A DNA stretch of 64,000 nucleotides, taken from the NCBI GenBank assembly GCA_963555705.1, contig OY743168.1:96388925-96452924 (forward strand), in the 5' to 3' direction. Below, in pieces: positions 10,481 to 47,685 of the stretch. Below the pieces are notes generated by a model, which ran no database searches, was not told the DNA's origin, and saw only the letters and a program-made list of their open reading frames with translations. The translations under genes and the position numbers were made by a program. This stretch comes from Ligustrum vulgare. Lineage: Eukaryota; Streptophyta; Magnoliopsida; Lamiales; Oleaceae. Within the stretch, counting starts at the first letter, position 1; every line of letters begins with the position of its first letter.

Positions 10481-10689
10481 TAACGTAAATTTTAATTACG
10501 ATATCAAAAATTGAGTATTTGTCCAACTGCTTCTCAAAATTTCAAGCCTTTTTATTTTGAAGGCCCACGTGCACTCACAGAAGGGTTAAGTACGCAAATA
10601 CACAATTTTATAGGGTCTATTTTTAAATATCATGTATTTTAAAGATATTTCAACAAATACAAAACATATTATCAAAATCAGGTTTCTAA

Positions 10690-10960
10690 GGGCAGTCTTC
10701 ATTTTCCCTTGACGTGGAATGCTATTGGATAATTGTCTGAGCAAGCAAGCTCAATGAATGGCTAGGGACTAGCATTTCGGTCTTGTGGCGACCACCTTAT
10801 TGTAATTGGTGGGCTGTGATCTTATCATCAAGAGTTCATTGAGATCAATTATTGGGACCCTGATGACAATCCTGCTAGTTGGTACTTACCGGGCCGCAAG
10901 CAATCGGGGAGTTTTGTTTATAATTGTGCTATGATGTGTTGCTGAGTATCTAATTCTCAT
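10690..10960 (+). pseudogene. Short coding-like relic, family not recognised
   Basis: A less AT-rich island with an open stretch at about 10828-10944 reading INYWDPDDNPASWYLPGRK. It looks like decayed coding sequence rather than repeat, but I cannot assign it. A 12-base C run lies at 11094-11105 and a T run at about 11138-11152. Confidence 0.25.
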
Positions 10961-11154
10961 ACATGGATATGCAAAAATTTCAAGTTGTTTTTTCTTATCT
11001 TAGTAAGAGTTGCGTATAGTTTGCAATTTGGTTATGTGAATTTGCTATACCTCAACTAAAACATAAGTGAAATTCTTGTTGCAGACTCTTAAACCCCCCC
11101 CCCCCTCCGAATTTTTATCATTTAATGCTCAGTTACCTTTTTTTTTTTTTTTAA

Positions 11155-12075
11155 TAGCATTCTATAATGAATTACATTTTATAATTAATTACAGATGTTA
11201 ACTTAATTTCAATTTTACAATTATTTACAATCGTAACTAATTATTAATTATTGTTGTAACTTAATTTTATAATATTACAAGACAGTCAATTTTTCTTTTA
11301 AAATTAATTGAACTAGTTAAAAATTATAATAAATTACAGTTTGTAATTAATTATAACTGTAGTTTAATTTCAAACTTGTAATTAATTAATTACTATCCTA
11401 ACTTAATTGTATATTACAATTCACTCAAAGTTTCATTTCATTTAAAATTAATTGAATTAGTTACAAGTTGTAATAAATTACAGTTTGTAATTAATTACAA
11501 TTGTAACTATATTTCAGTTTTGTAATAAGTTACAAATATAACTAATTAATTACTATTATAACTTAATTGTAAAAAAAAAAAAAAAAAAACACACTCAAGA
11601 TTTCATTTTTCTTTTAAAATTAATTGAATTAGTTACAAATTGTAATGAATTACAGTTTATAATTAATTAAATTTGCAACTTAATTATATTTTGTAATGAA
11701 TTATAATTTGTAATTAATTACAATTACAATTTTATTTCAATTTTGTAATTAATAACAATGTAACTTATGAATTAGTAAAATATTAGTAATTCGTAATTAA
11801 TTACATTAGTGTAATTTGTAATTAACCAATGTCACAACCGCTTTGTTGGGCTATCGTCGAAAATACAATCATAACTTTATTTCAATTTGTAATTAATTAC
11901 AATTGTAAATTAATTATTTCAATCTACTAAATACCACCATTACCACCAATCACCACCTAAAATCATCACCACCAATAACCACCTAAAACCGTTACCACCA
12001 ACCATCACTTAGTAATTAATTGTAATTGTAACTTTATTTTAATTTGTAATTAATTAATTATAATTGTAACTAACT
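11155..12075. repeat. AT-rich array of TTGTAATTAATTACAA palindromes
   Basis: The 16-base palindrome TTGTAATTAATTACAA and variants, often followed by TTGTAACTT, recur more than a dozen times at irregular spacing. CCA-rich words (ACCACCAAT) at 11930-12120 follow. No coding. The (ACC)n-type block resembles the complement of the GGT-rich core at 6930-7150. Confidence 0.75.
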
Positions 12076-12685
12076 TACCATCACCACCGCTACCACCTAA
12101 TTACCACACCACAATCATCAATACCTTGCACCAAACAAAATCGCCAAACCCTTGTTAAATTTCTTGAAAGATTTCTAGTAAAATTTTCGTGTTGTAAAGA
12201 GACTTTCATCGAGAAATTATTGAATTATAGGATTTGTAACAAATCCATAGTTTCGCTTCTGAAGTTCTCTTGCACTTGACTACAACCAAAAGAGTCCAAA
12301 TTGCTGCCCATCCAATTTCCCACCATGTATGCATCGTGACACAGCCTTAGAAACAAAGATCTTCTACCTTCATCCCACTAAGCTTTCGCTTTTCGCACGA
12401 TCTGAAATTCCTCGTCTTTTCCCTTCTTCGAGAAAGACCCGGTAACCCCAATTATTGCCACTAATCTGAGAATACAACAAAACACACTATTATGTTAGAA
12501 AATAGGCATACATGACACACAAAGATGAAAGATCGTGCAGCGTTGGACGGGGCTGCAAACCCAAAACACATTACAAAAACTCTATTATAATATATATTGT
12601 TGAAATTAATCTCTCCTTGAGGTTGAAAGAGTCCATTTTTCTTAGTCCTAGTTTTTGTCTGCACGGAGGCACTTTGTGTGAAGTG
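12076..12685. other. Non-coding stretch with CCA-rich and unassigned sequence
   Basis: Bases 12076-12130 are CCA-rich. Bases 12130-12470 look less repetitive, but I see no domain or splice pattern that would make a gene. Confidence 0.5.
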
Positions 12686-12704
12686 CATCTCATCCAAATT
12701 ATGT

Positions 12705-12963
12705 AAAAAGGTCGAACCCCAACATTGAGGGTTCCCACCGACTCTGCCCTATGCCTTTGGTGGAGGAGGTAAATTGCAGGATATGCCTCCCGGAAGCCAG
12801 GGTGGAGAGCTTATGGATAGGCTTGACTATTAACCGTGGTAACTCCTGCTTGCGATAGGGTACAAATCCAGTATTTCAGGATTTGAACCCTGCACCCCAC
12901 CGCGCTGAGCCCTATCCGCCCCCCCCCCCCCCATTTTCCACTGGAAGATATACACTGGGGGCA
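12705..12963 (-). mobile_element. tRNA-derived SINE (Au-like), minus strand
   Basis: Flanked by an exact 19-bp target duplication, CATCTCATCCAAATTATGT, at 12686-12704 and 12964-12982. On the minus strand it has a tRNA-type B box (GGTTCAAATCC), an A-box-like GGGCTCAGCG upstream, a conserved middle (CTCCACCCTGGCTTCC..GGAGGCAT) and a T-rich 3' tail (CCTTTTT), as Au SINEs have. A run of about 14 C on the plus strand (12917-12930) lies near the 5' end. The same family occurs at 21039 in the opposite orientation. Confidence 0.9.
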
Positions 12964-13092
12964 CATCTCATCCAAATTATGTGAAGGGAGAGAAGTAAAA
13001 GAGAGACAAAAGAGGTTGTCATGGAACCAGTGAAGACGAAGACAAAAGAGAGTTTTGGTTTTGATTTAATAAATAAATATATGATTTGATAA

Positions 13093-13256
13093 TGTTATAA
13101 ATTAGAGAGAAAAGTAGAGACACCAATAAACTTGTGTATTATATTATGAACCAGAGCCCCATATATATAGGGGAAGAAATGGATATACAAAGTAATTATA
13201 ACTAGGGTTTTAGGGGTACAACTATCATTCACTAATACAATATAATATTTACAACA
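13093..13256 (-). repeat. 3' LTR of the copia-type element
   Basis: 164 bp, TG..CA ends, contains CCCCATATATATAGGGG, itself nearly palindromic. The paired LTR carries about 10 extra bases (an AAAGAGAG insertion near its start). Confidence 0.9.
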
Positions 13257-13292
13257 CTCCCCCTTGAATGACATATGATATTACAAAATATC

Positions 13293-13890
13293 TACCTCGT
13301 TAAAACCTTGTTTGATAAAACCCAATGGGACAAAAATATCAAACGAAGGAAAAAGAGTACAGTTGTTTTTGGAGTATTAAGATGAATGCTGCCTCGTTAA
13401 AACCTCGTCAGGAAAACCCAATGGGACAAAACCTTGGCTAAGGAAAAAGAGTACAACTACTCCCCCTTAGTGTTGATCGTTGTAAATCATCGAGTTGATG
13501 TATCCCAATCTTGTGAGCTGGTTTATTGAATGTAGATGTTGATAGTACTTTTGTAGATAAATCGGCTTCATTGTCACTTGAGTGAATTTCTTGAAAATTC
13601 TGGAGTCTTTTGATGATGCCTCGTTAAAACCTTGTCAGAAAAACCCAGTGGGAAAAAACCTGAATGAAGGAAAAAGAGTACAGCTACTCCCTCTGATTCA
13701 ATATGTATTTAATCATCCATATAGTTACTCCCCCTGATTCAATCTCTATTGAATCATTCATATCTTGATCTCTTCAAGAGTTTCGTATAAGAGAGTATAT
13801 CAATAGATATTGATGACAGCTACCTCATTAAAAACCTTTCCAGGAAAACCCTGTGGGAAAAAACCTCGGCTAAGGAAAAAAGAGTGTAGC
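13293..13890 (-). repeat. Four dispersed copies of a 65-75 bp block near the polypurine tract
   Basis: Copies start at about 13293, 13389, 13617 and 13819. Each runs CCTCGTTAAAACCTTG, a short variable part, AAAACCCAATGGGA, another variable part, then AAGGAAAAAGAGTACA. Spacing is irregular (96, 228, 202 bp). They sit just inside the 3' LTR. Function unknown. Confidence 0.85.
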
Positions 13891-14189
13891 GTATATTAGC
13901 TCCCCCTCATGGGAACATTACAGTTATATTGATACTGCACATAATTATTTCAACTGTAAATCGGTACAATATCGAATGTATTTACCAAGCATTTATAAAT
14001 AACACATATCTGATATCTGATATTATTTGTTCTTTGAATATATTCAATATTTCCAATCATTTGAACATGTTGTATCGAGCCATATTCTATAATCAATATT
14101 ATCAATGCATTTAATGCAGTTCTAAAATTTGGAAGTGACCTATTCACTTCACTGAACAATTAACTTATTCACTTCACTAAACAATTAAC

Positions 14190-17100
14190 TTATTCACTTC
14201 AGGTGAATAATTAACCATGAATTTGAAAATCAATTGCCACGATTTTTATTCACAGTAATGGTACATCTCAATTTCAACACTTTGTCATATAGAGTCATTT
14301 GTACCATTCTTCATGTAATCTAATTTCATACTATCTATCACATTCCATTGGAAATTGAATCTATTCAAGGCATATGATATATTTAGATCGCAAAGTATCT
14401 TTATACTTTGATCAAACAAGTTTCTTAAAAACTTGAATTATATATTTCAAATATATTTAATCCTTCAAGGATTATACTGTATGCTTCAAGCATCGTATAT
14501 GTTTCACATTGCAATTATCAAATTGCTACCACCAAATTTAAGTCGTGAAACATTAGATAGGTAACGATTCCTATATTTCAAATAGATTTTCTCTAATTAT
14601 TTCACTGCAATCCCAAAGTACCGAGGTATTGATTACCCTTTTTAATCTCACTCATTGGTACTTCAAAGAATACTCCCAACGTACCGAGTTGATGATCATA
14701 CATTTAGATATCACTCATTGGTACATCAAAGAGCGCAAGCTAGTAATCAGAGTAAATCATTTTTCATTAAATACATTTCTGATAATCATATAAGTATAGG
14801 CACTTATTATGCATTTTCAGGCAAATAAAATATTGTATCTATGCCAGATCTTTGAAACATTCGTTGAGCAACAAATCGTGTATTACGACTATACCTATAG
14901 GTATTTTACTGGCTTTACACTTTTATGTGTTTGGACTTCAGGTCCCAAAACTTCAGGTTTTGTAATAAGTTTAATTTAGCCTGAACGCATACTTTTGCCA
15001 ACTATTTTTATGTCGATTTTCTTCGACATATTTTCTTTTATTATCCTCGCTATCATTCAAATTATGATGCGGCTAGTTTCGCAATTTGCTTTTGCATAAG
15101 TGCTTTAAAAAGTGTGTCGACACAATTATCATCTCAATTTGATTTCTTTCCCCACAAGACATAAATATAGAGATCTCAATTTTCAATATTTCAAGTACTT
15201 GAACCTCTTCTAGAGATTTACAATTAATTATGTCAATAAATACTCTCTCACGAGTATATCTCCTCAATAAGACCACTATAATCATTTGCTCTATTTTTAT
15301 TTATTTGGGGATCTTTATTTGAATCAAATATTGCTACGCTTCAGGCGTGCTACATATAAATATGAGATAGAGCATGAGATTTTATTAATCTCTTATGCAT
15401 CTTGTAATTATGTTATCTTTGAACGTTTCGTTCATATTTTCAATCGAACTTCTGGTTCGTATTATTACTCGCGAGGATATATAGAACATAATATGATGCA
15501 TTTGTTTGATTTTAAGCTATTCCCCCCTAATGTTGAGAAAATTGTCCAATCAAATTGACAATAACTTTTTTTTTTCGACGTTGTAAAATATCACCCATTT
15601 GGGATATATGTTCAAACAACGCATTTTTCTCAACATTATTTATTTCCCATATCAGTGCATTGTGGTGGATCAATTGCACTATTAAAAAATTATATGGAAA
15701 AATTAGGCTATAACCATAAGCCAATTATAATAGGGAGAACTATGATATTGGCATGATGCGTAATAAAATTCCCTAAACAAAAAGGGAAGTATTTTGTTCT
15801 CAATTAAATTAATTGGAGGCGTTTAAAAAACAAAAATGTTAAACTATTTATCGACATCCCAACTAACACTTCTTAAAATGTTGAGATTCGTGTCCACTAG
15901 CATTATCAAGACACATTCTTGATTATATAATCTGAAAATCATGCTCATAATTCATAATTTGAGCAATAATTTCGCAAACTTCAGGTTGTGAACAACATTT
16001 AATCATCTAGTACATGTATCAAATCTATTAGATACAAATAATATTTAGATGATCAACGTGGAGGATGATGGGTCCCCATTTATCACCCCAATTAATTTTC
16101 AGAAATATAGGAAATTTAATCCCTATTTTAGCTAGTGATAATGAAAAATTTCATGAAAGAGAACAAACATCATATATGATTGAATTGAAGAATCTTCTGG
16201 TTCTTCATTGAGTATCAATTTTAATTTCGCATCATTATTGATCCAGTGATGGTCCAACTGGTCATGCCAAATAATAAAATTAAATTGAACTTCTGGTTCA
16301 ATATAAGATATAATCATATATTATTCAAGTAGTCAAACTAATCAATGTCCTTATGACATAAGTTATATGTTTTCCTTTAGAGATAAATATGAGCTCAAAT
16401 GAGATATTACTCATTCAAAAATCAATATGTCAATATTCTTCTGGAATATTTTAATATCAAATTAATAACACATCTCATAATATTGGGCTTTTCGAGAGCA
16501 AATTATATTCCAATATTATATTTCATATGAGATAAAATTATAATTCTTCAGGAATCATCACAACTATATATTAGACTACATCATAATAATCTTCTGGATT
16601 ATTAATAAATTCGAATTTCTTTGCGAAAAAGAATGCAGTATTTATCACTTGAGTAATAAAATAATATTCTTCTAGAATATTGAAATGTAGCAATAACGCA
16701 ATATTCTTCTGGAATATTGATTCGAATCTCATTCAATTATAACAATAATTGATATCTATTGTGCAATTTAAGAGCAAAATAACGAATTATTCTTCTGGAA
16801 TAATTATATTGCTAAAATTGCAATTCTTCAAGAATAATAAGTCAATATTCTTCTGGAATATTGATATTAATTATTCATTCTTCCTTTCAAGCCAACAATA
16901 TTTGTGCTCTACACGAGTGACGTTAAAATATTCTTCTTGAATATTTATCTAACGCGAATTGTGTTTATTCGAGAACACCAATACCATATTCGTTTAAAAC
17001 ATATTTTAAATTATGCTTCTTCAAGAGCATTGGATCAATATTCTTCTGGAATATTGAAATTGTAATATACTCCTCATGACAAGCAAGTAATATTCTTCTA

Positions 17101-18375
17101 GAATACTACTATTGTTGTCCTACTTCGTGAGCAACAATATGATACATTATTAAATCAAAATTTATGAATGAACATCTACAAATATTTAATCATCTTAAAG
17201 AATATTAATTACCATATAAACATAGTATGAATTTATATATAAAAATGAATTACCAAACATATATCAGGAAAAAGAATCTTCATATATAGAAGTTAACAAA
17301 ATTGACTAAATCTTTTATTGGCTAAATCTTTTACCAATATGCAAAAGATACTAAACATGCACGTGAATTCCATATATAAAAATTAAATATATAACTAATA
17401 TATAGTAGAATCAAATCTAATAATGTATTTGAGAATTCAAAATAACGTAGTGATTTCCAATGAAAAAATTGAAAGAGCAAAAAATAATAACAATAATAAT
17501 TTGCTGGAACAATGTATCCTTTAACGAATTTATTCCGATTCTTCCAAAAGAAATAATAAATCAATATTCTTCTAAAATATTGGAAATCATAATTCATGCT
17601 ATTCAGGAGCAAATAACATCCTTCTAGGATATTAATTATAATGTTGTACTACTTCAGGAGTAACAACAAATTATTTATAATAGACAATTTTACGATTAAT
17701 ATTTTTCTGAAAAATTAATCGTCCGTTGTGCTACTTCAGGAGCGAGAACAAATTATTGTTAAAGATTTTAGATATTTGCTCTTCTGGAGCAATTGAATAA
17801 TAAATCTTTCAAAATTATGCTCTTCAGGAGCAATTAATATTCTTTACGAATATTATTATAATAAAAATTGTGCTACTTTAAGAACAACCACAAATTATTC
17901 TTCTAGAATAATTATAGTTCTAAAATTTCGATTATTCAAGAATAATAAATCAATATTCTTCTGGAATATTGAAAATTTAATTTATGCTCTTCGGGAGCAA
18001 ATAATATTCTTCTAGAATATTAATTATGATGTTGTGCTACTTCAGGAGCAACAACGAATAATAATCAATTCTATGATTAATATCCTTCTGAAATATTAAT
18101 TATTTATTACATTACTTCAATAGCAATAACGAATTATTCTTCCGGAATAATTATAGATCTAAAATTGCTATTATTCAAGAATAAAATGTCAATATTCTTC
18201 TAGAATATTGAAAATTACAATGTATGCTCTTCAGGAGCAAATAATATTCATCTGAATTATATGTTGTGTTACTTCAGGAGCAACAACAAATATTTGTAAT
18301 AGGCAAACACGGATATATGATTAATATTCTTCTGGAATATTAATATAATGTTGTGCTACTTCAGGAGCAACAACA
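14190..18375. repeat. Array of short hairpins with a shared five-base loop
   Basis: Dozens of perfect or near-perfect stems of 4-9 bp enclose a loop TTC[A/T][G/A] (plus strand). Clear examples: 14190-14210 (8-bp stem), 14459-14473, 15445-15459, 16284-16302, 16432-16450, 16699-16719, 16785-16805, 16842-16864 (9 bp), 17035-17057 (9 bp), 17776-17792 and several more to 18375. Stem sequence differs from hairpin to hairpin, although a few stems (AATATTC, GAATTATTC, TTGCTC) recur. They are sparse before 16.2 kb and dense after it. Confidence 0.85.
16230..16300 (-). pseudogene. GAG-pre-integrase remnant of the copia element
   Basis: Minus-strand text reads IIWHDQLDHHW, close to the WHxRLGH signature of the GAG-pre-integrase domain, followed by a degraded MMR-like stretch. 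This is the only coding signature I can support inside the 13.1-18.8 kb element, and it agrees with a minus orientation and a copia origin. Confidence 0.55.
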
Positions 18376-18633
18376 TAATGAATTATCAATATAAAGATCA
18401 AAATCTGTCGAATTGGTTGGAGAAAATCAGATTCAGATTCATGAGCCGCAATTGCTAATGAACAACATCGTAATGAATAGATGTGAATTGCAATTGAATA
18501 GTAATAAAAAAAATCATATGTCACCAAATTAATTTCGGTGCATATGATTTTACCATCTAACTAATATTTTGATATATGGAATTTTGAAAAAGAAAATTAG
18601 AACTCAATTTGATAGAGACTCGTGCTGATAACG

Positions 18634-18807
18634 TGTTATAAACTAGAGAGAAAAAGAGAGAAAAGTAGAGACACCAATAAACTTTTGTATTATATTATGA
18701 ACCAGAACCCCATATATATAGGGGAAGAAAGTGATATACAAAGTAATTATAACTAGGGTTTTAGGGGTACAACTGTCATTCACTAATACAATCTAATATT
18801 TACAACA
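18634..18807 (-). repeat. 5' LTR of the copia-type element
   Basis: 174 bp, matches 13093-13256 almost throughout. Immediately left of it, on the minus strand, is the putative primer site TTATCAGCACGAG (18618-18632 region), seen next to the LTR in related plant elements. Confidence 0.9.
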
Positions 18808-18812
18808 GATAA

Positions 18813-20401
18813 AATATTTTATAACTCCCCGATTTTAAAATTTTAAAATTTAAATGTATGGTTAAGCCTAATTAACCCCTCACAGAAGCATACCAGTACG
18901 TAATGATAGGCCCACTCCATTATTTTGTTTCACGTGCAATGTGAAATGTGGATTAAAGTTATATTTTTATTTATAAATAAGAGTTTTAATTTTTTTTTAT
19001 TTAAAATGTGTGATTAAATATTAATTATAAAAAATATGTGTGATTAAATAATGATTTGAGAAAATGTAATGCTTATAAATAAACAAGTTTACCACCATGA
19101 TATTCTGCAGACTTGACAAAAAGTTTGAATTGCCATGACTTAGATTCAAACGATTGTTCGATTCGATTTTCTTGTTCTAGAACCTCACCACCTCCTAACT
19201 TTTATTGCCATCACATATTTATAAAAATGAGAATAATATATTTATATAAATTAGCCTCAAAAAGTGATCGAAAAGTGACGTCCTTCCTTTCAATTAAAGA
19301 GGGAGCTCCATCCCTAACCCTCCTAACTTCTTTTATTTTTTTCACCATAGTAACTACTATTTTATCTCGAGCATGAAAATTTATGCGGTGAGTGAAAAGA
19401 TATTCAAACAACTTGAAAAGGTCAAGGCATAACTCATAGTTTGCAGAATTAATCTTCTATTTGTACATACGTCTTGTTCATATTGAATTATCAATGATGT
19501 GTTGACAATTGTATAGTTGTTGATTTCAAACAACTTGAGAAGTTCAAGGCATAGCTCATAGTTCACAGAATTAATCTATTTGTACATACCTCTTGTTCAT
19601 ATTGAATTATCAATGATGTTTTGACAATTGTGTAGTTGTTGATTTGGAAGATGATGTGATTGATAAAATAATGAATATTCGCCAAATATGATATATATAA
19701 CCCAATATGTACACCACTATGTACAAATAGCATAACTCTAGTTCGCAGATTCTCACAACAATCAATTGGGAACACTTATCTAGTAAAATAAACTTGCACT
19801 TAATTTAATTTGATTATATTTCTCTATCAACTTTTACACGGTTTTAATTAGGGTTTTCAACATTTACAATGACGTTCATCTGTGTTCAAGTACATTTTTT
19901 TACGAGAAAGTTTAAAAAAAAAAAAAAAAAAGGGGGAGAATACGAGAAAGTAACAAAAAAAATATGGTACTCCCTTGGAAATTCCTCGTGTGATTTGGGG
20001 AACATTGTTAAGTGGACACTTTGGAAATAAATAAATGGAACAGATAACTTATTATTTGCCATGATTGATTAGCAGCACGAGTATAACTGAATAATTAAAC
20101 AAACGAAGCTGCCAAAGTTCCGGTAAAGTAAAATCGCAATGTTAAGAGCCTCTTTGGTTCATGAAAACTTTTTATCATAATTTTTTAAATTCAATCTTAA
20201 TCATTCATTATTGGCCCTCAAAATTGTCTGGATTATTTTTTATTTCAATCATGATACTTAGCCATAAAGAAAATTTTCAACCCTAAACAGTGAAAATAAA
20301 CATCCACAATAAAAAGAAAAAGAAAAGTTAAAAACAAAAGAGTCCCAAAACTTTGAAGGTCAAACTATAATTGGAGTGTGCCTTAACGCATATTTTGAAT
20401 G
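18813..20401. other. AT-rich intergenic stretch without a gene
   Basis: Holds a 121-bp tandem duplication (separate entry), homopolymer runs (19911-19932) and short frames without domains. An AGAGCCTCTTTGGTTCATG at about 20149 looks like a Tourist-type terminus without a clear partner. Confidence 0.6.
19403..19645. repeat. Tandem duplication, two units of about 121 bp
   Basis: Unit 1 begins TTCAAACAACTTGA at about 19403 and unit 2 repeats it at 19524. The whole unit, including TTGTACATAC..CTTGTTCATATTGAATTATC, is repeated with few changes. Confidence 0.9.
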
Positions 20402-22740: not shown

Positions 22741-22984
22741 TAAATCAAATAGGGGCCTAGGGCTATATAAGATTTAAATAATCTACCTATTTATTTAATA
22801 TACAAAAGGAGGTATATCTGGCCTGTTTTTCTCGCCCAAAGAGATTTCACCAGATGACAAAGTGACAAACCAAATGTCCAAAAGAAAAGGCAACTTCAGA
22901 TCTTAGCAAGATGATTTCCTGCCCACAGAATTTCAAATTTTGACTTAGCATTAAATGATATATCTGCTTTACTGAATAAAAAAA

Positions 22985-23031
22985 GGATAAAACTATACTT
23001 ACTAACAAAATCATACTAACAACTTACTAAC
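22985..23031. repeat. Left terminal inverted repeat of the caulimovirid element
   Basis: 47 bp starting GGATAAAACTATAC and containing TACTAAC at three positions 11-14 bases apart. Pairs with 31394-31440. The A-rich 9-mer ATAAAAAAA directly precedes it. Confidence 0.7.
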
Positions 23032-23179
23032 ATAAATTAATACCTATTTTACCCTTTTAGCTAAAAATATAATTAATATCTTATTTCACATATTATCTTA
23101 TTAAATTTAACACATAATAAATTCTAAAAATTTAATTACTTTAAAGTTTTTATTATTTATTTCATAATTAAAAAATATT

Positions 23180-23449
23180 ATGCCTGTTTATGATCCCCAT
23201 ATACTTCACGAAAAAAGAAAAAATTTAATTAGAATTTTACATAGAGAATATTTAGAATTGGAAAGAATAGGAAGAGACCTAAATACTGATCCTATTGCTA
23301 TAGAAAAATATAGAGAAATTAAAAGACTAATTTTACAACATAATGAATATTTAAAATTAAAAGAAGAAAACTTAATCAGACAAGAAGATATAAGATATAT
23401 GGATGAATTTGAAGAAAGGTTTTTAAGGAGAATTAGACAAAGATTATAA
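23180..23449 (+). CDS. Caulimovirid small ORF B (89 aa), intact
   Basis: An intact 89-codon frame encoding a highly charged, probably all-helical protein (heptad-like Leu/Ile spacing in residues 14-35 and 47-75) ending in a basic RRIRQRL tail. It precedes the primer binding site and the coiled-coil/coat ORF. By size, position and charge it resembles the small virion-associated or nucleic-acid-binding proteins of other caulimovirids, but no sequence family could be recognised. The start is the only ATG. It begins 149 bp from the left TIR. Confidence 0.6.
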   Translation: MPVYDPHILHEKRKNLIRILHREYLELERIGRDLNTDPIAIEKYREIKRLILQHNEYLKLKEENLIRQEDIRYMDEFEERFLRRIRQRL

Positions 23450-23490
23450 TTCCGCAAAATAAAATTTCACTTTGACGATCCAACTCACAG

Positions 23491-23503
23491 TGGTATCAGA
23501 GCC
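23491..23503 (+). other. tRNA-iMet primer binding site of the caulimovirid
   Basis: TGGTATCAGAGCC, the minus-strand DNA primer site used throughout the Caulimoviridae. It follows ORF B and is 32 bases upstream of the ATG of the coiled-coil/coat ORF (23535). It therefore lies downstream of two small ORFs rather than in the leader. Confidence 0.9.
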
Positions 23504-23534
23504 TGTAGTTGTACTTAAAAATATATTTAAAAAA

Positions 23535-24542
23535 ATGTCTAAAAAATTACCAATAATCGAACCTAGAGTATATAATTATAAATCTAAAGATTTACCAAAT
23601 AATAGTCATTGGCCATTAATAACTGAAATATATGGAAAATTTATATCATTTATATTATTAGGAGAAGGAGGATTTGGAGAACATAAACAATTAAACTGGA
23701 CAAATTTATTTTTACTAAATAAATTAGGAATAAGTTTAGATAAAACTACAGAACAAAATTTAGAACAAGCAAAAAACCCAGAACAAGTTCAAGAAATTAT
23801 CAATAATTTACCATTAGAAATAAGACAAATGATAGAAATAACTAATGATTATAAGGATATAAACAAAAATATACACACACAAATATTAGAAGTAAAACAA
23901 TATGTAAATAACCTATCAAAACAATTAATAACTTTAGAAAACCAAATTAAGCAAATAACTGATAAAATAAATAAAATAGGAAATATGGTAGGAGTATATG
24001 AAAACCCAATAGAAATTATAGAGAAAAAAACTATTATAAAACAAATAAATATGATAAGAACAATTAAAGAAGAAGAAATAGGGAAAAATGATTTACATAA
24101 AAGAATAGATAATTTGCAACAAAATATTGGAATTATAAACCAAAATATAACAAAAATATATGATGAAATGGAAAAAAGAAAACCTAAAAGAATATTAACT
24201 GACAAAGAATTTAAAGCCATCAATAGATTAGGAATAAATATGATTACTGAACAAATAGAAAAATTTATGGAAAATCCTAAAAAAGAAGGCGAAGAAATTT
24301 ACATAACAGAAGAAGATTATATAGAAAAATTTAAAAATCTTAAAATAGAAGAAATTAATATGAATGAACAACAAAGAGCTTTAATACCAGCAGGACAACA
24401 TCCATCAGAATATATACAACAACCAGGAACTAACCAAGTTAAAAAAGAAAATACAAGTAATACTAATCCACAAAATACACCAGAAATCTATATGAATCAA
24501 AGACAAAACACAAATTTCAAAACAAATAATTTTATACCATAA
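23535..24542 (+). pseudogene. Caulimovirid N-terminal coiled-coil part of the coat polyprotein
   Basis: Open from the ATG at 23535 to a TAA at 24540 (335 codons). The first 60 residues hold a Trp/Gly-rich region (HWPLITEIYG, GEGGFGEH). Residues of about 110-260 are rich in Ile/Leu/Lys/Gln/Asn in heptad-like spacing, so a long coiled coil is likely, and the end is Asn/Gln/Pro-rich. The frame continues without a shift past the TAA into the coat protein region at 24543, so the TAA (probably an old CAA) may be a nonsense change within one polyprotein. Upstream of 23535 the frame stays open across the primer site but has no ATG. Role inferred from position only. Confidence 0.65.
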
Positions 24543-25712
24543 CAAAAATATTACACCAAGCCAAGTAAAAATTATCCTATAGAATATACACCATGGAGAA
24601 GTATGGAAACACAAATTAGTTCAGAAGGAAGATGGATAGATTTAGGATGTGTGCAAGATGTAGATCATGAATTAGAATTATGGATGAAATATATGACTAT
24701 GATGGCCTATACCAAAGAATTAACAGGAAAGCAATTACAATTAATGTTAGAAAATACATTTATAGGAACCACTGCAAGATGGTGGGGAAATTTAACAGAA
24801 ACTTATATAGGACAAGTTAGAGGAAATGACCAAGATGAAATAGGAACTATTTTAAGCAGATGTGAAGATGCATTAAAAAGAGAATATACATTAGTAATAG
24901 ACAGAGATACCAAAATTAGCTCAAGACTAAGACATAGATATTTATTAGAAAATCTATCAATATGTGATATGTGTTACTTTAAACAATTTGCATGTGAATT
25001 TAGAGAATATTTTGAAAAAGCAGAATATAATCAAGAAACATATGGTATGGAAATTATGAACCAAATATTCTTTAAATTACCAAACCCATGGAATTTAGAA
25101 TTATTTAAGGACTGGGAAAAATTAGAAATACCATTAAGTAATAATAGTTTAGGAGCAAGAATACAATTTATAGAAATGAGACAACAAGAAAAATGTATGG
25201 AAGCAAATAATATGATAAAATTCCATAAAGCAAGTAAAAAATCATTATGCTGTGATAAATTACAATATAAACCAACACAATGGAGATGTCATCTAGAAAG
25301 AAAATATAAGAAAAAGAAATATTATAGAAAAGATAAATTTAGAAATAAATCTAATAAATTTAATAAATATAAAAAACCATATAATAAAACATTTAAAAGG
25401 TATAGAGTACCATACAAGAGATATTTAAGACAAAAACAAAACAAAACAAAAACATATCCTAAAAATCCTAGAAAATGTAAATGCTATTCATGCGGAGAAA
25501 TATGACATATATCTCCAGAATGTCCTAAGAAAGATAAAAAGAAAAATATGATGTATATCTCATTAATAGAAAAAGAAAATTATAACTTATTACCTATTGA
25601 ACAAGAAGAAGAATGGGAAGAAATTTATGAATTAGAAGAACATGAAGTAATAAATACAATAATGGAATTAGAATCTTCAGAAGAAAGTGAATCTAATGAA
25701 TCTAGTGAATAA
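24543..25712 (+). pseudogene. Caulimovirid coat protein (gag-like) with CCHC zinc finger
   Basis: The frame is open to a TGA at 25503 and then to a TAA at 25710. The central part has TARWWGNLTE and a Cys-rich ICDMCYFKQFACEF, and is followed by a strongly basic stretch (Lys/Arg/Tyr, about 25290-25470). The CX2CX4HX4C zinc finger lies at 25482-25523. The TGA sits inside the finger, directly before its His, in place of an aromatic residue codon (probably TGG). The tail is acidic (Glu/Ser). Basic region, finger and acidic tail in this order are those of caulimovirid coat proteins. The internal ATG at 24603 is not needed if the frame is continuous with the upstream part. Confidence 0.85.
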
Positions 25713-25730
25713 GAATATTTATATATAAAT

Positions 25731-27077
25731 ATGATTAGACAAATTAGTGAAGAAGGTACATCTAAAGAATATGAATATCAATTAGAAGAAAATGAAGAAC
25801 AACTAAATGAAAGATTAATATTTAATCCTAAAATGTATGAAAAGATCTTAAAATCAAAATTAGATGTAGAACCAAAAGAAATATTTAATTTACCATTTTG
25901 GCAGAAAAACAAAGAAATAGCGTATGTAGCAAGAAACCATAGTCACCCTATAGACATAAGAGATACTACAGGAAATACATTAATACCTATAATAAATGAA
26001 GAAATTATAAGACAAGAAATAAACCTATTGAATCCTGAACTAAAAGGAAAAATAAAGAACATATATTTAGGAGCAGTACAAATTATAGCAAAAGCCTATT
26101 TTAGAGAAGGAATAGACACACCTATAGAATTCTATATTATGGATGATAGAATTGTAAGTTCAGTACAAGATGCTCTAATAGGAATTGTAACAGGAAACTT
26201 AATGTACCAAAAAGTAAAATTTACAATAAGACCAAATTTCAGCATAAGTATGGGAGAACAAAATAAAAATAAAGTCTTAACATTATATTACAGGTTAAGA
26301 GGGATAGATATGGAACCAGGAAGTAAAACTATAAGTTCAACTATTAGAACAATATATGCTTTTACTAGTAAACATGAAGTAAAAATTAAGAATGCTACAA
26401 GAATACATATAATAGAACCCATATTTCAGAATTTATTGGAATACAAACCAGCTAAAGAAAATCCAAGAATGACAATACCAGAAGATATAGAAATAGATTT
26501 CAATCAAGCTAGAAGATTAGTAAATATGGATAAACCACAAATAGAATTTGGAAGAAGATCAATTAGCCTAAGAAGAAATACTAGTACAAGATCATTACTT
26601 GAAATAGAAAATAGAAATGATTCAGAAAAACAAATAATGACAAAAATATATAGAAAAATACCAATAATGAATCTATCTAAAAGAAATGAGACAAAACAAT
26701 TTGAAGTTATGATAGAAATTAGAATAAATGGAGAATGGAAAGAGCAGAAAGTATTAATAGATACTGGAGCAACTGTATCTCATATAAAAGATAACATAAT
26801 AGGAGACTTAGAACTTAAAGTAACGAATAATTCAATTCAAATACAAGATTATTTTGGAAATATTCATCCCATGGATACTTATGTAGAATTACCAATAAGA
26901 ATAAATAAAAGAAATGAAATAATCATAAACATGTACGTAGAACATACAGGAAAGGTAAATACGGAATTACTATTAGGAACAGACTTCTTAGAGCAAGTAA
27001 AACCATATTACATAAAAGATGATAGAATGCTATTAACAATACAAAATGAAAATCTAGTTATACCAAGGTTATTATGA
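25731..27077 (+). CDS. Caulimovirid movement protein with C-terminal retropepsin-like domain (PR1)
   Basis: An intact 448-codon frame, in the same frame as the coat region and 18 bp beyond its last stop. Residues of about 105-260 look like a 30K-superfamily movement protein (YLGAVQIIAKAYFREGID, MDDRIVSS, IVTGNL), which opens plasmodesmata for cell-to-cell spread. The rest holds a retroviral-type aspartic protease: VLIDTGATVSHI, catalytic Asp codon at 26760 (residue 344), and a matching ELLLGTDFLEQ about 70 residues on. It ends in an ATGA overlap (27074-27077) with the next ORF. A protease domain here is unexpected because a second one starts the next ORF. Start at 25731 is the first ATG after the stop. 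Confidence 0.85.
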   Translation: MIRQISEEGTSKEYEYQLEENEEQLNERLIFNPKMYEKILKSKLDVEPKEIFNLPFWQKNKEIAYVARNHSHPIDIRDTTGNTLIPIINEEIIRQEINLLNPELKGKIKNIYLGAVQIIAKAYFREGIDTPIEFYIMDDRIVSSVQDALIGIVTGNLMYQKVKFTIRPNFSISMGEQNKNKVLTLYYRLRGIDMEPGSKTISSTIRTIYAFTSKHEVKIKNATRIHIIEPIFQNLLEYKPAKENPRMTIPEDIEIDFNQARRLVNMDKPQIEFGRRSISLRRNTSTRSLLEIENRNDSEKQIMTKIYRKIPIMNLSKRNETKQFEVMIEIRINGEWKEQKVLIDTGATVSHIKDNIIGDLELKVTNNSIQIQDYFGNIHPMDTYVELPIRINKRNEIIINMYVEHTGKVNTELLLGTDFLEQVKPYYIKDDRMLLTIQNENLVIPRLL

Positions 27078-29029
27078 ATAAAATACAAGGAGGAAGAGAA
27101 CATATTTATATACTAACCAAAATGAATTACAATGGATATCTTAACAGAAATTATCATGCATTGTTTGATACAGGAGCATCATCCTGTTTATTTAAAGAAA
27201 ATGTATTACCCCCAGAAATGTGGAGTAATAAAAAAGATAATGAAGAAAGAGTAATACTTGCAGGATTTGATGGAAGCACAAACCTAATAACTAAAGTAGC
27301 AAGGAATGTTAAAATACAAATAGGAAAATATGAATTACAAATACCTTATGTATATCAATTTGATGATATGCCAGGGGATATATTATTAGGAAATAACTTC
27401 ATAAAACAATATTATCCAATAACTATTGATGAAAAAGTTATACTTTTATCTACCCCTTGCCACCATATAGCAATAGCAATAAGAATTAATGATCCTTACT
27501 GTAGAGAAAAAGTGCCTCATATAGCAGCTCAGCGTGGTGAGGATAGACAAAAATTAACACAAACAACACAATTTATGCCTAATAAAAATAGAATAAATCT
27601 AGTACAAGAACATTTTGATCAAATTGTAATAAAAATATATTACAGAAAAATTATTAAAATTATCAGGAGATAATCCTTTGGAAAAATAGCACATAAATAA
27701 GCCTATGACAGAAATTATACTAGAAGATGATACTAAGATTATTAGTGTAAAACCAATTAAACATACACCAAAAGAATTACCTGAATTTGAAATGTACATA
27801 AAAGAAATGCTAGAAAAGAAATTTATTAGAGAATCTAATAGCAAACATAGTAGTCCAGGCTTCATTGTAATAAAACATTCAGAACAAAAAAGAGGAACAT
27901 CTAGAATGACAATTAATTATAAAAGGTTAAACACTTATACAAAAGAATTAAAATATCAAATACCAAACCAACATGTATTATTTAATCAAATTAGAGGAAA
28001 GAAATATTTCTCTAAATTTGATCTCAAATCAGGATTTTATCATATTATGTTAACTGAAGAATCTAGACATTTAACAGCTTTTACGGTACCATAAGGATTT
28101 TATGAATGGAATGTATTACCTTTTGGATTTAAAAATAGTCCAGGAGAATTCCAAAGGTACATGGATAAAATATTTAAAGATTATTATCATTTTATTACAG
28201 TATATATTGATGATGTTCTTATTTACTCTGAAACCAGACAATACCACTTAAAACATCTAAATATTTTTATAGATATTGTAAGGAATAATGGAATTATATT
28301 ATCAGCTACAAAAATGGAGATAGCTAGAGAAAATGTAGAATTTTTGGGATCTATAATAAGCCAAGAAGGAATAAAACTCCAAAAACATATTGGTACAAAA
28401 ATACAAGAATTTGACAATCATATAAAAGATAAAACACAATTACAAAGCTTTTTAGGACTTGTAAGACTAGGAAATATGTACCTAACCTAGCAAAACATTT
28501 AATCCTATTACAAAAAAGATTAAAAGGAAAAATTAGATGGACACCATGGTCTAAAGACGAAGAAGAAGAAATACAAAAAATTAAAGACCTTTGTAAAGAT
28601 TTACCAGAATTAGAATTACCCAAAAAAGAATGTGATTGGATTATAGAAACCGATGCATGTGAAACAGCATGGGGAGCAGTACTTTAATATATTTATCCAA
28701 ATGAGGATGAGGAAAGGATTGCACAGTACACTAGTGGCAGTTTTACTCAAACTCAAACTAATTATCATATAAATGAAAAAGAATTATTAGCTGTAAAATT
28801 TGCTATTAAAAAATTTGAATTATTTATTGTTACTACAAAATTCAAAATTAGAACAGATAATACACAAGTTAAATATTGGTTAACTAAAGAAATTGATCCA
28901 ACTATTGCAAATAAAAGGTTAGTTAGATGGCAAGTAGAACTTAGCCATTATGATTTTGAAATTATTCATATTAAGGGTACTGACAATGTTATTGCAGATT
29001 ATTTATCAAGACATGGAAGACATACTTAA
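27074..29029 (+). pseudogene. Caulimovirid pol: protease (PR2), reverse transcriptase, RNase H
   Basis: It starts at the ATG overlapping the upstream stop (ATGA). PR2 has ALFDTGASSCLF (Asp codon 27167, residue 32) and DILLGNNFIKQ about 70 residues on. A shift at about 27640 moves the frame; a TAG at 27687 follows. RT then runs in the new frame: HSSPGFIV, FSKFDLKSGFYHI, a TAA at 28092, LPFGFKNSPGEFQ and the intact YIDDVLIY. A second shift at about 28460 restores the first frame for RNase H (ETDAC, a TAA at 28685, NEKELLAV, RTDNTQ, DNVIADYLSR), ending at 29029. Both catalytic RT motifs survive, but the gene has two shifts and three stops. The two proteases lie about 400 bp apart, on either side of the ORF junction. 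Confidence 0.9.
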
Positions 29030-30117
29030 GAAAGTAGAAGAAATTAACTTGGCCATGGGTCAAATGAATATCAACTATTCAAATCTATTCAACCATGTGA
29101 ATACTTGCATGGCGCAGATTGTACAAATTAACAGTGAACTAGCCTTTTACAAGTCTAGGGTTAATTCTCTTGAAGAAATGTACAAAGGAGGATCCCAATC
29201 CTCTCCAGTGAAGAATTTATCTGTAGGACTTCCTATTGAGGAAGAAGTATCTAATGTATCAATTATTGGAAGTTCATCTTCCAAAACCATTAGCAAAACT
29301 ATTGAACCATCTAAAGAAACTTTTTTAGAAGCTGCGAAGAAACCAGCAGTCGTAACAAAGGAACTATCAGAAAAGGAGAAAGTTATGAAGAAACTAGAGA
29401 CATTCTTGAAGTATGTGGAGTATCTAAACAAGAGGACAAAAGAAGGAGAATGGCTAAGGACAATTAGCCATCAAAAAATCAATAAAGCAATTATTTTTCC
29501 AGGAGCAGAACCAAGAACAGTCAGGGGACTGTTTGACCAAGGACTTATTCAGTGCATATACCCTAGCAAGGATATGAAGGAAATATCATTATTACCTAAT
29601 TCTATCAAGGCAGCAGTGAAAACATATTTTGGAATTACCAAAGCTGAAAAGATCTATGTCAGGATTTACTCAGTCATTCCAGAATTTATTGATGAAGAAT
29701 TTTTAAGGGCAGAACATATTGTAAAACTTGGAGTAACTAGCAAAGCTATTCTTTCAGAACCAGAAATAAAATCATTTAACAAAGAGGAACAGATACAAGC
29801 TATTCCAGAAAAAAGGGCATTGAGATTTAGAGTAATGTATACTGAATTAAGGGATACCCTTACATAAACTAATGTTTGGGTATATGAATCTAATGATGAC
29901 AAATTATTGATCTACAGCATTGCAAGAATTAATCAAGTTAATAGTCAATTATGGAAATTAAGAGAATATGCTGAGAATATACTTGTCAGCAATTTGGATC
30001 TTAGCAAATGAGCATATAAATATCTACATCACCTAATGGAGGTAGAAGCGGGTCACAAATGTAATAATTGTGGGGACCTACTCAACTATAATGAAGATGA
30101 AGCATACCTTGTCTGAA
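29013..30117 (+). pseudogene. Caulimovirid TAV-like (transactivator/viroplasmin) ORF
   Basis: It starts at 29013, overlapping the end of pol by 17 bases, and is open for 284 codons to a TAA at 29865. The same frame continues through a TGA at 30009 to 30117, where a Cys pair (CNNCGDLL) lies near the end. The N-terminus is a coiled coil (residues 1-55), then a Ser/Lys-rich linker, then a compact domain with WLRTISHQKIN, FPGAEPRTVRGLFDQG and YPSKDMKE. In caulimovirids the last gene after RNase H is the transactivator that allows re-initiation and forms virus factories. Position, size and the final Cys pair fit that; the call rests on context more than sequence. Confidence 0.65.
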
Positions 30118-30277
30118 CACGAATTATTCAAGGCATGGGGGTTCAGACCCATGTGAAACTTTAGAAAAGCAGCAAAAATTATTGTAACTTTAGCTTTACT
30201 TTATCTACTTTAAATCTTAGCCAAGTATGTAAAAGATAGGGAATATTATCTTGTTCCCCAACTTTGCTTTTACCAAC

Positions 30278-30341
30278 TATAAAAGGAGGAGTCTCTCCTC
30301 ATTGTTAGCATCCGAAAATCATATGAGTTTTCAGCAATAAA
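30278..30341 (+). promoter_or_regulatory. Caulimovirid pregenomic promoter TATA box and poly(A) signal
   Basis: TATAAAA at 30278-30284 lies about 160 bp after the TAV frame. A start about 30 bases on (near 30308-30315) is expected. AATAAA at 30336-30341 follows closely, inside a five-codon uORF (30323-30340). The arrangement of TATA, start, close poly(A) signal is that of caulimovirid terminally redundant RNA. Start site inferred. Confidence 0.65.
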
Positions 30342-30996
30342 AATCTATATTCTCTATCTATTGTCTTTCTTTTCATTCCTAGTTCAAAATTTTCTTTCAT
30401 CAAACCAATCCAGAAACAGTTAGCAGAAGGTATGAGTAACTAAACTTCACATAGATATATATGAAGCCATAAAATAGTTAGTAATACTCTATTTGTTTAT
30501 GAGTCCATAAGTTTATTCTTTATAAAACTTTTGTTAAAAGAGTACATCCAGAGGTAGGAAACGAAACTGGATTGTGCTGAACCTCTTTGAAGTGTTTGTT
30601 TAAGTATTAAACAGAAAGTGTTGGAGTAAGTCTTTCGAGCATCCTTTAATGCATAAGTCTTTCGAGCAGCAACTATCTTCTATGAAGATGTGTTTAATAC
30701 TTAGATAAATAACTGAACAGTATTTGGTCAAAAATCTTTTAAAATCAGATTTACAAAGAAGCGTGATGGACCCATAGATAGAAAGAAGTATTATTGATTA
30801 TTTATGGTGGATTATATATCGTCTTTTTTATTGATATTATTCAAGTACTGTTATCATAGTCTTAAATTTATCATTTTGCTTATGATATCTCTTGCATGTT
30901 TTTACATATGTTGAAAATTTGTTTTTACTATTCCTAGAATTAACTATTGGAAGATGATTTGAATTAATAGCTTAAATTTAAATAGTTTTATAATTT
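30342..30996 (+). other. Caulimovirid pregenomic RNA leader with uORFs and a stem-loop
   Basis: About 690 nt from the predicted start to ORF A. Several ATG-plus-stop mini ORFs are scattered here (for example at about 30431 and 30649). A perfect 13-bp inverted repeat, TAAGTATTAAACA (30601-30613) and TGTTTAATACTTA (30691-30703), encloses two direct copies of TAAGTCTTTCGAGCA (30627-30641 and 30654-30668). uORFs followed by a strong hairpin suggest ribosome shunting, as in other caulimovirids; that is inference. Confidence 0.6.
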
Positions 30997-31332
30997 ATGA
31001 ATTCAGAACATTTAATAGAACTAAATCTTTCAGAAGTAAACGACTTTAAGTATTTAAGAGAAGAAACAATTAAACAATTAGAAATTATAAGAGAAGATTT
31101 AAGAAGATTTTATGATTTATTAGACAACGCAATAAAATAACCCTCATTCACAGATTTTTCACAATTTACTAGAATTATAGTAAATAAAGGAAGAATAATT
31201 AGTGATCTAGAGAAAAAAATTGAAGAATTAAATATAATTATTGAAGAAAAGAGTTTAACATATAATAGTATATATTACGCATTTTATGTAAACAATAAAT
31301 TTAGAGATATAGACATAACATCAAAAAACTAA
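30997..31332 (+). pseudogene. Caulimovirid small ORF A (about 111 codons, one stop)
   Basis: First substantial frame after the leader. It is open from 30997 to a TAA at 31138 and then in the same frame to 31332. The translation is Leu/Ile/Glu/Lys-rich and likely helical (REETIKQLEIIREDLRRF, then SDLEKKIEELNII). In a circular genome it would be followed by ORF B (23180), with about 300 bp between them in this copy including both TIRs. No family recognised. Confidence 0.55.
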
Positions 31333-31393
31333 AAGAATTATAACTAGAAGGATAACATAGTAATTGAACATTAAAATTTTTTGTCTTTTAGCC

Positions 31394-31440
31394 GTTAGTA
31401 CAACTGTTAGTACATTTTGTTAGTACATGTAGTAAGGTCC
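31394..31440. repeat. Right terminal inverted repeat of the caulimovirid element
   Basis: 47 bp ending GTAGTAAGGTCC on the plus strand, with three GTTAGTA words 12-13 bases apart. Inverted relative to 22985-23031. ATAAAAAAA follows directly at 31441-31449. Confidence 0.7.
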
Positions 31441-31449
31441 ATAAAAAAA

Positions 31450-40827: not shown

Positions 40828-41243
40828 GAAAGTTTATAATAATAAAATAAAATATTTAATGGTGTGAATAAAAATTGGTAATCAAAGCATCTTTTTGGCA
40901 AATCAAGAGAAACATGTTTTTTTTTACACAATTTCTCAAATCAATTTTTAATCACACATATTTTCTTTCTCTAATTTTTAAACACACATCTTACCTAAAA
41001 AACATAAAAAAATGTTTTTAAACAAAAAAAATTTAACAAACATGTTTTTAAATCCTCATTTTTTATATATTGTAGAAAATAGAATATGATGAGTGCACAA
41101 AATGAGTCTCTTTATTTTTTTTAATTTAATTAATTAATTAATTAATGGATAATATAGGAGGATATAATTGGTTTAAAGCAAAAAATTGTGAGGGTAAAAT
41201 CGGGATGTCAAAGATTTTCTCCTATTCATACTTTTATAGTATT
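39368..41243. other. AT-rich intergenic stretch with microsatellites
   Basis: Contains a 33-bp direct duplication (TGTTATAGGCTTTGTATAGTAATAAAGGA-type, about 39850-39912), an (AT)n tract at 40793-40825 and an (AATT)n tract at about 41127-41146. No gene seen. Confidence 0.6.
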
Positions 41244-42858: not shown

Positions 42859-46517
<3,659 letters not shown>

Positions 46518-46611: not shown

Positions 46612-47189
46612 GAGAAATAAGAAGTCATCTTATCCATAATTTTAACGTTGTTTCATATGAATCTTGTAACTTATGTTAACATCAAAGTATTTAACCTCTG
46701 ATGTGTATAAAACACCTTTTGTCACCTTTGGATGTAAATCTTATATTGATTCTTGATTTTATCTTATTATTACATTATTCTCTTCCTAGTTTCTTTCAAT
46801 ATAACTAGCTAATAAAATCATAGATTACAGTGAATGTTCTTTTTGGTCTTCTATTCTAAGACCACCTCCAAGGCATACCCAAATTTGGGATGATGAATAG
46901 TCCTATCCCAATTTTGGAATACACTATTTTATTACAAAAATGCCATTGTTATATTTACGAAATTGCCAATTTTATTTTATTTTTATAAATAAAAACTGTT
47001 TATACCAAATTTGTGACAAACTATTGGAGATGAAAAAGGGTTCCGATCAAATTTGGGTCAAAGTTCGGACCAAATTTGATTCGAACAAGATACTCTAAGC
47101 TCTTGATAAATATGATACCAAGGAATGATAATAATACTTAGTTTAAAAGAAGCCATTAGAATTTGATCACCTCAGTAAACACTAATTTA
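46612..47189. other. Intergenic stretch, no gene
   Basis: Around 46860-47100 are short palindromic words (CCAAATTTGG-type) that could be a degraded MITE. Boundaries not resolved. Confidence 0.4.
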
Positions 47190-47685
47190 GCCTCTGTTTG
47201 ATTAAAGTTTTTTTTGTTTATAAATAGATAATGTGATGTTTTTGTGGTAAATTATGTAGTTGAAAGGTGATTTAAAAAAAAAGTGTGTGATTAAAAAATG
47301 ATTTGAAAAATTGTGTTATTTATAAACTATAAACAAATTATCGTACGAAGTTCAACAAATGGTTTTATGTGCACCCTATATTTTGACCACTCAGATCACG
47401 ATAGTTCAGTTCGAGTTGGTTAGTGAGGTTGAGCGTTTCAATATTAGAATCGCCGTTTTTTAAAGGAACGATCCCACCATTTGTATTTCGAACCCAAGTC
47501 ATTGCACGTCGATGCGAGTGGGAAGTGAGAATTGCGTGATTTATAAACTTTATTTATAAACAACACATTTTTTTAAATCACATTTTAAGAATATAAATTT
47601 TTTCAGATAATTTTTAATCATATATTTTATTTTAAAAATATCATATTCTTTATTCATAAACGATTTATTTTTATCAAACAAAGGC
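47190..47685. mobile_element. Tourist-like MITE (496 bp), TTA target site
   Basis: Ends GCCTCTGTTTGATTAAAG and TTATCAAACAAAGGC are inverted repeats, with TTA on both sides (47187-47189 and 47686-47688), as PIF/Harbinger-type MITEs have. A less AT-rich segment inside (about 47340-47530) may be a later insertion, with a B-box-like GGTTCGAAAT on the minus strand. Confidence 0.7.

Follow-up and report, generated by a model that had tools for sequence, protein, structure and literature searches.

Caulimovirid units with fixed inverted ends and 9-bp target duplications form a dispersed family in Ligustrum vulgare

Closest described systems

The route by which caulimovirids enter plant chromosomes has been described as speculative or unknown (PMC10377300, PMC10175614). 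A 2023 review that calls their endogenous integration speculative cites non-homologous end joining or retrotransposon help as proposals, and depicts the resulting loci as often flanked by (TA)n repeats and frequently present as arrays and rearrangements (PMC10377300). Here we analyse a 64,000-nucleotide stretch of the Ligustrum vulgare genome (assembly GCA_963555705.1, contig OY743168.1, positions 96,388,925 to 96,452,924; hereafter the window) that contains a caulimovirid unit of 8,456 bp, at 22985–31440, bounded in the manner of a DNA transposon. This unit resembles the endogenous florendo-, petu-, solendo- and badnaviruses, among others, in its gene set, tRNA-Met primer site, genome size and decaying nuclear copies. 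In contrast to the arrays and rearrangements described for such viruses, insertions in the family to which it belongs are of unit length, with inverted ends at constant positions and duplications of 9 bp. Petunia vein clearing virus (a petuvirus), likewise a caulimovirid discussed for integration, is listed as belonging to the very small number of plant pararetroviruses that possess an integrase domain (PMC10741241); whereas that virus is credited with an integrase-like motif, the window unit has inverted ends and 9-bp duplications, and no integrase match was found in its scanned open reading frames (ORFs).

Among transposons, the parallel lies with Mutator-like elements (MULEs) and Pack-MULEs. 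The Mutator element Hvu_Abermu is described as 8,176 bp long, bounded by GGG..CCC and duplicating 9 bp of TA-rich target sites (PMC9168764), and thus shares with the window unit the duplication length, GG..CC-type and inverted ends, target preference and approximate size. Its arms, given as 138–145 bp (PMC9168764), differ from those of the window unit, which measure ~47 bp, are 75% alike and contain heptamer arrays. Also unlike MULEs, the unit shows no transposase domain in the ORFs scanned, and what it carries is a virus genome instead of fragments of genes. The nearest virus–transposon hybrid is Teratorn, a piggyBac–herpesvirus fusion of ~180 kb in medaka, reported to have its own piggyBac transposase and TTAA targets (PMC10175614). 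As described there, Teratorn likewise consists of the genome of a DNA virus that is enclosed between transposon ends and integrates as one piece, but the family considered here derives from a reverse-transcribing plant virus, has no recognised transposase and makes 9-bp duplications. No report of a caulimovirid with transposon ends was found among the listed titles and abstract openings of the openly licensed literature searched. Fixed ends and target duplications make one route of chromosomal entry directly testable by means of short end sequences; if the explanation favoured below is true, it would help account for the wide dispersal of this caulimovirid family and would provide a plant, reverse-transcribing counterpart of hybrids such as Teratorn.

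Unit-length insertions with fixed ends

The two arms of the unit, about 47 bp each, are identical in 36 of 48 alignment columns (~75%), carry three exact TACTAAC heptamers apiece, and have the 9-bp repeat flush against their outer edges (Table 1). This confirms the description given by a first-pass annotation of the window, namely a whole caulimovirid genome bounded like a DNA transposon by inverted arms and an abutting repeat. When the unit is viewed as a circle, the arms flank the gap between ORF alpha and ORF beta. Taken alone the arms are moderately unusual, their local score of 38 being reached in 11 of 1000 dinucleotide shuffles, and arms combined with a flush 9-bp repeat score 22, a value that none of 600 shuffled windows attains (maximum 18.5). 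The single better-scoring pair in the real window (44157/55610, score 26) lies within a pair of inverted dispersed repeats. A chance origin of arms and duplication is ruled out by the shuffled windows together with the mis-paired flanks of genomic copies presented below. Examination of the window for a long terminal repeat retroelement found no long terminal direct repeats (20 largest of 47 repeat families, the largest 49 nt) and no integrase match by Pfam in the ORFs scanned, and the joined flanks, searched as an empty site, have no further copy inside the window.

Further evidence comes from the host assembly (1,384,917,791 bases, 51 contigs), in which the best 40 of 608 loose candidates for the left end and the best 40 of 706 for the right end were scored, the candidate numbers themselves not being copy counts. 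Since copies were selected by matching the ends, ragged or older ones are under-represented in this sample. The 39 non-window matches to the left-end query begin at query positions 24–38, position 36 corresponding to 22985 and the spread being put down to chance letters, and the 39 non-window matches at the right stop no more than 21 letters from 31440. For the 39 non-window copies of the left list, sequence around the right end was also retrieved, and 28 of these stretches contained the terminus, giving 29 complete copies with that of the window; of the 11 of 40 copies without a paired right end, one (L133) is cut at that end and ten lack the full end in the fetched stretch. An exact, flush 9-bp duplication is present in 26 of the 29 complete copies, every 9-mer being different, while the remaining three comprise one copy with an 8/9 duplication and two (L146 and L147) without any. 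Exact duplications of 7, 8, 10 or 11 bp occur in none of the 29, and mis-paired flanks, used as a control, yielded no exact 9-bp match in 812 pairings (best 7/9). The duplications are richer in AT than the flanks (84% against 69%). None of the 1.5-kb left flanks (n = 29) matches the window copy at E 1e-8, so on the left side the copies look like solitary insertions.

A dispersed family has thus arisen by insertion of discrete caulimovirid units of ~8.5 kb whose inverted ends are fixed and whose target sites are duplicated over 9 bp. The paired ends and duplications constitute transposition-grade evidence. Flush duplications of 9 bp (range 7–12 bp for Mutator-like elements) and inverted ends common to the copies are both present, and the family is a mobile one with Mutator-like insertion. 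The transposon-like movement anticipated by the first-pass annotation is therefore strongly supported, and its call for many copies with the same ends, each with its own duplication, is answered by 40 matches to either end and by the 26 distinct 9-mers. Conversely, its suggestion that a virus inserted once inside a pre-existing small element is ruled out by the many insertions having both ends in common. Overall, the data point to a transposase that inserts these genomes precisely, and away from accidental capture, the usual assumption for such viruses.

Two further origins of the ends were considered. A lineage with real linear ends, another option of the first-pass annotation, does not fit if those ends were made by reverse transcription, because the tRNA primer site (23491) lies ~500 bp inside the left end. 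A strong predicted RNA pairing of the two arms (duplex of −37.8 kcal/mol, against −18.1 ± 3.4 and a minimum of −29 for 300 shuffles) would suit an ordinary endogenous caulimovirid whose leader palindrome broke at its tip and was end-joined to chromosomes, the window repeat having arisen by chance. This proposal is contradicted for the family as a whole by duplications of exactly 9 bp, flush and all different, in 26 of 29 copies, end joining not being known to produce such structures, and we give it very little credence; it may nonetheless apply to the two copies without a duplication. In one duplication-less copy (noted for L147 and L176), the flanks are inverted copies of each other and the left end starts with CC rather than GG, as if the unit had been placed inside a palindromic element (read by eye).

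The identity of the transposase is a separate matter. Three features underlie the Mutator label, namely the length of the duplication, the letters at the ends and the AT-rich targets; as no transposase was found in the ORFs scanned, there is room for an enzyme from another superfamily that also makes 9-bp duplications. Target duplications of hAT and PIF/Harbinger elements are 8 and 3 bp long, respectively. One source gives 7–12 bp for Mutator against 3 bp for CACTA (PMC10741241), and an enzyme from outside the Mutator group seems to us improbable.

Variation among copies and the source of the ends

The explanation that we favour, with a probability of about 0.5, is a replicating virus whose integration, through transposon-type ends of its own, is carried out by a Mutator-like transposase of the host. 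According to this scheme, the virus genome itself would carry both arms, which on the circular molecule would be neighbours in the gap separating ORF alpha from ORF beta. The heptamer arrays would be bound by a MULE transposase of host origin, which would open the circle where the arms meet and insert the resulting unit in AT-rich target DNA. For integration, the virus would then behave as a non-autonomous DNA transposon, while multiplying via reverse transcription, and each copy would decay once inserted. We infer arm adjacency in the circular genome, host transposase action and integration from a replicating pool, the first of these because the arms flank the inter-ORF gap and would form a strong RNA-leader duplex. 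A broader and somewhat more tentative proposition is that a reverse-transcribing plant virus evolved permanent transposon ends on its circular genome, is integrated precisely by a host Mutator-like transposase, and alternates between a viral phase, in which it multiplies by reverse transcription, and a chromosomal phase, in which it lives as a DNA transposon. Fixed ends, the 26 duplications, near-star trees and a unit length inside the caulimovirid range all support the favoured explanation.

The alternative to be weighed most carefully is that a MULE captured a single viral genome, or that a virus landed once between MULE ends, and that the composite then spread by DNA transposition with its viral genes as passive cargo. 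Ends, duplication length and AT-rich targets are all MULE-like, as this account would have it, and at least three shortened copies (L125, L127 and L134) retain both ends and duplications despite internal deletions; L125 and L134 lack stretches of pol that differ in their break points, and the left part of L127 is missing ~670 bp. Capture would, on the other hand, require the coincidence that the stretch taken up apparently equals one genome, is opened in the space separating two ORFs and retains every core domain tested for (RNase H lying outside the scan). Near-star trees do not separate the two accounts, since a fast burst from one master likewise yields a star. In the movement-protein piece, available for 20 of the 39 other copies and the window, the mean pairwise difference is 1.9%, 92% of tree length is terminal (21 copies) and all 12 indels in aligned parts are private; L195 additionally lacks 85 bp at the edge of this piece. 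Similarly, 90% of branch length is terminal for the left 1.55 kb (28 copies), where the mean terminal branch of 0.0096 corresponds, at a plant substitution rate of ~7e-9 per site per year, to around a million years, a rough figure only.

More discriminating are the variants themselves, pooled over four coding pieces and divided into amino-acid-changing (N) and synonymous (S) classes. Private variants fit neutrality, both for C>T/G>A changes (114N/21S, expected ratio 5.37) and for others (166N/62S, expected 2.77), whereas variants found in at least three copies are poor in amino-acid changes (13N/15S and 7N/14S against the same respective expectations), and those in exactly two copies are intermediate (32N/11S and 17N/8S). 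The N/S difference between single and shared variants is significant for the pooled pieces (p = 0.0002) but not for the movement-protein piece alone (p = 0.07), these Fisher tests assuming independent variants and recurrent mutation being able to imitate sharing. Such depletion is unexpected for passive cargo. Moreover, 116 of 117 shared variants (three pieces) conflict with another variant in the same piece, as expected of a recombining pool. Because shared variants are both poor in amino-acid changes and conflicting, integration from a replicating, recombining virus population is favoured on balance, with moderate confidence. Capture of a viral genome by a MULE, put forward in the first-pass annotation, is possible and fits these patterns less well than does a virus carrying the ends.

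Several observations weigh against the favoured explanation, and some are what the MULE-cargo account would lead one to expect. The conflict among shared variants could stem from recurrent mutation or gene conversion. Shared stops are not clearly depleted (12 stops to 48 synonymous among shared variants, 32 to 83 among private ones, p = 0.28); nine of these 12 are C>T or G>A and three are other changes, and four occur in at least three copies. Within the left 1.55 kb, one 18-bp deletion and three small A-run insertions are each common to two copies; together with some shared stops, they speak for the MULE-cargo account. Copies L146 and L147 (2/29) have no duplication and begin with CC instead of GG at the left. 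An autonomous MULE sharing these ends was not encountered, no genome search aimed at transposase families having been made, and a direct arm-to-arm junction string is present in none of the loci fetched, all copies seen being chromosomal.

Diverged relatives bear on the age of the ends. A heptamer-array pattern with a different inner base has seven sites genome-wide, against none for a reversed control pattern, and the six of these that were fetched are all viral copies or fragments; the search required heptamers, so that their presence at these sites is by selection. Three of the six match the viral unit over ~2.96 kb at 92.5–97%, while in L230 and L234 the viral match is confined to 87 and 862 bp, respectively, of ~3 kb, beside the right end. 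The sixth, L233, is 73% identical over 475 bp of ~3 kb, with an ORF beta 64% identical in protein and the same kind of arm. Because L233, despite its divergence, has an arm in the corresponding position, the arm is an old part of the lineage and not a recent one-off, which also argues against passive cargo; taking the evidence together, we regard the MULE-cargo account as rather unlikely. Copies with other break points and no heptamers had been named by the first-pass annotation as grounds for rejecting transposition. Right-truncated or partial copies do exist (L133, L230, L233 and L234) and agree with that description only in part, as they have an arm at the end that is kept or, for L133, at the other end.

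Gene content and further features of the window

The unit has the domains that define Caulimoviridae, namely PF01107, PF22909, PF02160/PF13975 and PF00078 in a scan that did not take in the RNase H part, together with the tRNA-Met primer site at 23491 (Table 1). Its length of 8,456 bp agrees with the 7.1–9.8 kb spanned by caulimovirid genomes (PMC13308828). The window copy is decayed, with three in-frame stops in the gamma–coat–movement frame, frame changes in pol and a stop in ORF alpha. ORF gamma shares its frame with the coat and movement genes, stops lying between them, and the coat piece ends in an apparent zinc-knuckle region, recognised by eye. The placement of coat ahead of movement protein presumably recalls cavemo- and solendoviruses, and the 305-aa ORF, which we assign by position alone, sits where the inclusion-body/transactivator gene of caulimovirids is found. 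Judging from its motifs, the segment at 30278–30341 is where the pregenomic RNA probably starts and ends.

Table 1. Coordinates of features of the caulimovirid unit and its borders (window positions)
Feature	Positions	Strand	Evidence or remark
Left 9-bp target duplication, ATAAAAAAA	22976..22984	none	Flush with left arm edge; other copies show the same arrangement with 25 further 9-mers
Left terminal inverted repeat	22985..23031	+	Begins GGA; TACTAAC at 23000, 23014, 23025; left end of 40 scored genomic matches
ORF beta, 89 aa, charged	23180..23449	+	No Pfam match; 77-aa homologue (64% aa identity) beside similar arm in L233
ORF gamma, 356 aa, coiled-coil-like	23472..24542	+	Only weak coiled-coil matches, below cut-off
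tRNA-Met primer-binding site, TGGTATCAGAGC	23491..23502	+	~500 bp inside left end
Coat protein gene piece	24603..25505	+	Pfam PF22909, E 1.3e-9
Movement protein and first aspartic protease domain	25731..27077	+	Pfam PF01107, E 2.4e-33; PF13975, E 1.9e-8
Peptidase A3 and reverse transcriptase	27074..28490	+	Pfam PF02160, PF00078; pieces 27074-27673, 27705-28094, 28161-28490; frame changes
305-aa ORF	28950..29867	+	No specific Pfam family
TATA box (30278) and AATAAA (30336)	30278..30341	+	Sequence inference
ORF alpha, ~110 codons	30997..31332	+	Reading frame; one in-frame stop, 31138-31140
Right terminal inverted repeat	31394..31440	-	Three TACTAAC on minus strand; ends TCC; right end of 40 scored genomic matches
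Right 9-bp target duplication, ATAAAAAAA	31441..31449	none	Flush with right arm edge

Precise integration in a family in which no known transposase was found, and the presence of four ORFs with no clear assignment, would both be explained if the virus coded for its own unrecognised integration enzyme in ORF alpha, beta, gamma or the 305-aa ORF. Among the eight window ORFs scanned, a set that did not include ORF alpha or the RNase H portion of pol, Pfam returned no transposase domain, and beta, gamma and the 305-aa ORF had neither a transposase nor an integrase match; as gamma looks like a coiled coil and alpha and beta have only ~110 and 89 codons, a virus-coded enzyme appears quite unlikely.

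Scans of the window for tRNA genes and Rfam families gave no match. In a viral contig collection, no relative was found by three viral protein pieces, and the primer-site pattern gave no viral-gene match among the matches listed; the movement-protein ORF had no match by tblastn in a phage collection and none by sequence in PDB. A phage-like contig with the arm pattern (L121, 7155–7216) was rejected as a coincidence: the pattern falls in tandem TACTAACAAAATT repeats near the contig end, and none of the viral pieces matches the contig at an E value under 0.01.

Some minor observations concern the unit and the remainder of the window. Two aspartic protease domains follow one another within 25731–27673: the first closes the movement-protein ORF and the second (A3) opens pol. 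A possible RNA-leader intron, spotted by eye, spans 30429–31391 (AG|GTATGAG ... TTTTGTCTTTTAG|CC) and ends just before the right arm; a scripted acceptor pattern did not pick up its acceptor. Elsewhere, the pair 10574–18887 has another flush 9-bp repeat (CTCACAGAA) with GGGTTAA-type inverted ends, possibly by chance, its score of 15.5 being equalled in 27 of 600 shuffles. Short dispersed repeats, possibly resembling miniature inverted-repeat transposable elements, form a family of at least five copies in the window, in both orientations (44126–44271, 47181–47329, 55495–55639, 18958–19090 and 40910–41042), and a retroelement remnant at 63066–63896 has Pfam matches to reverse transcriptase and RNase H domains.

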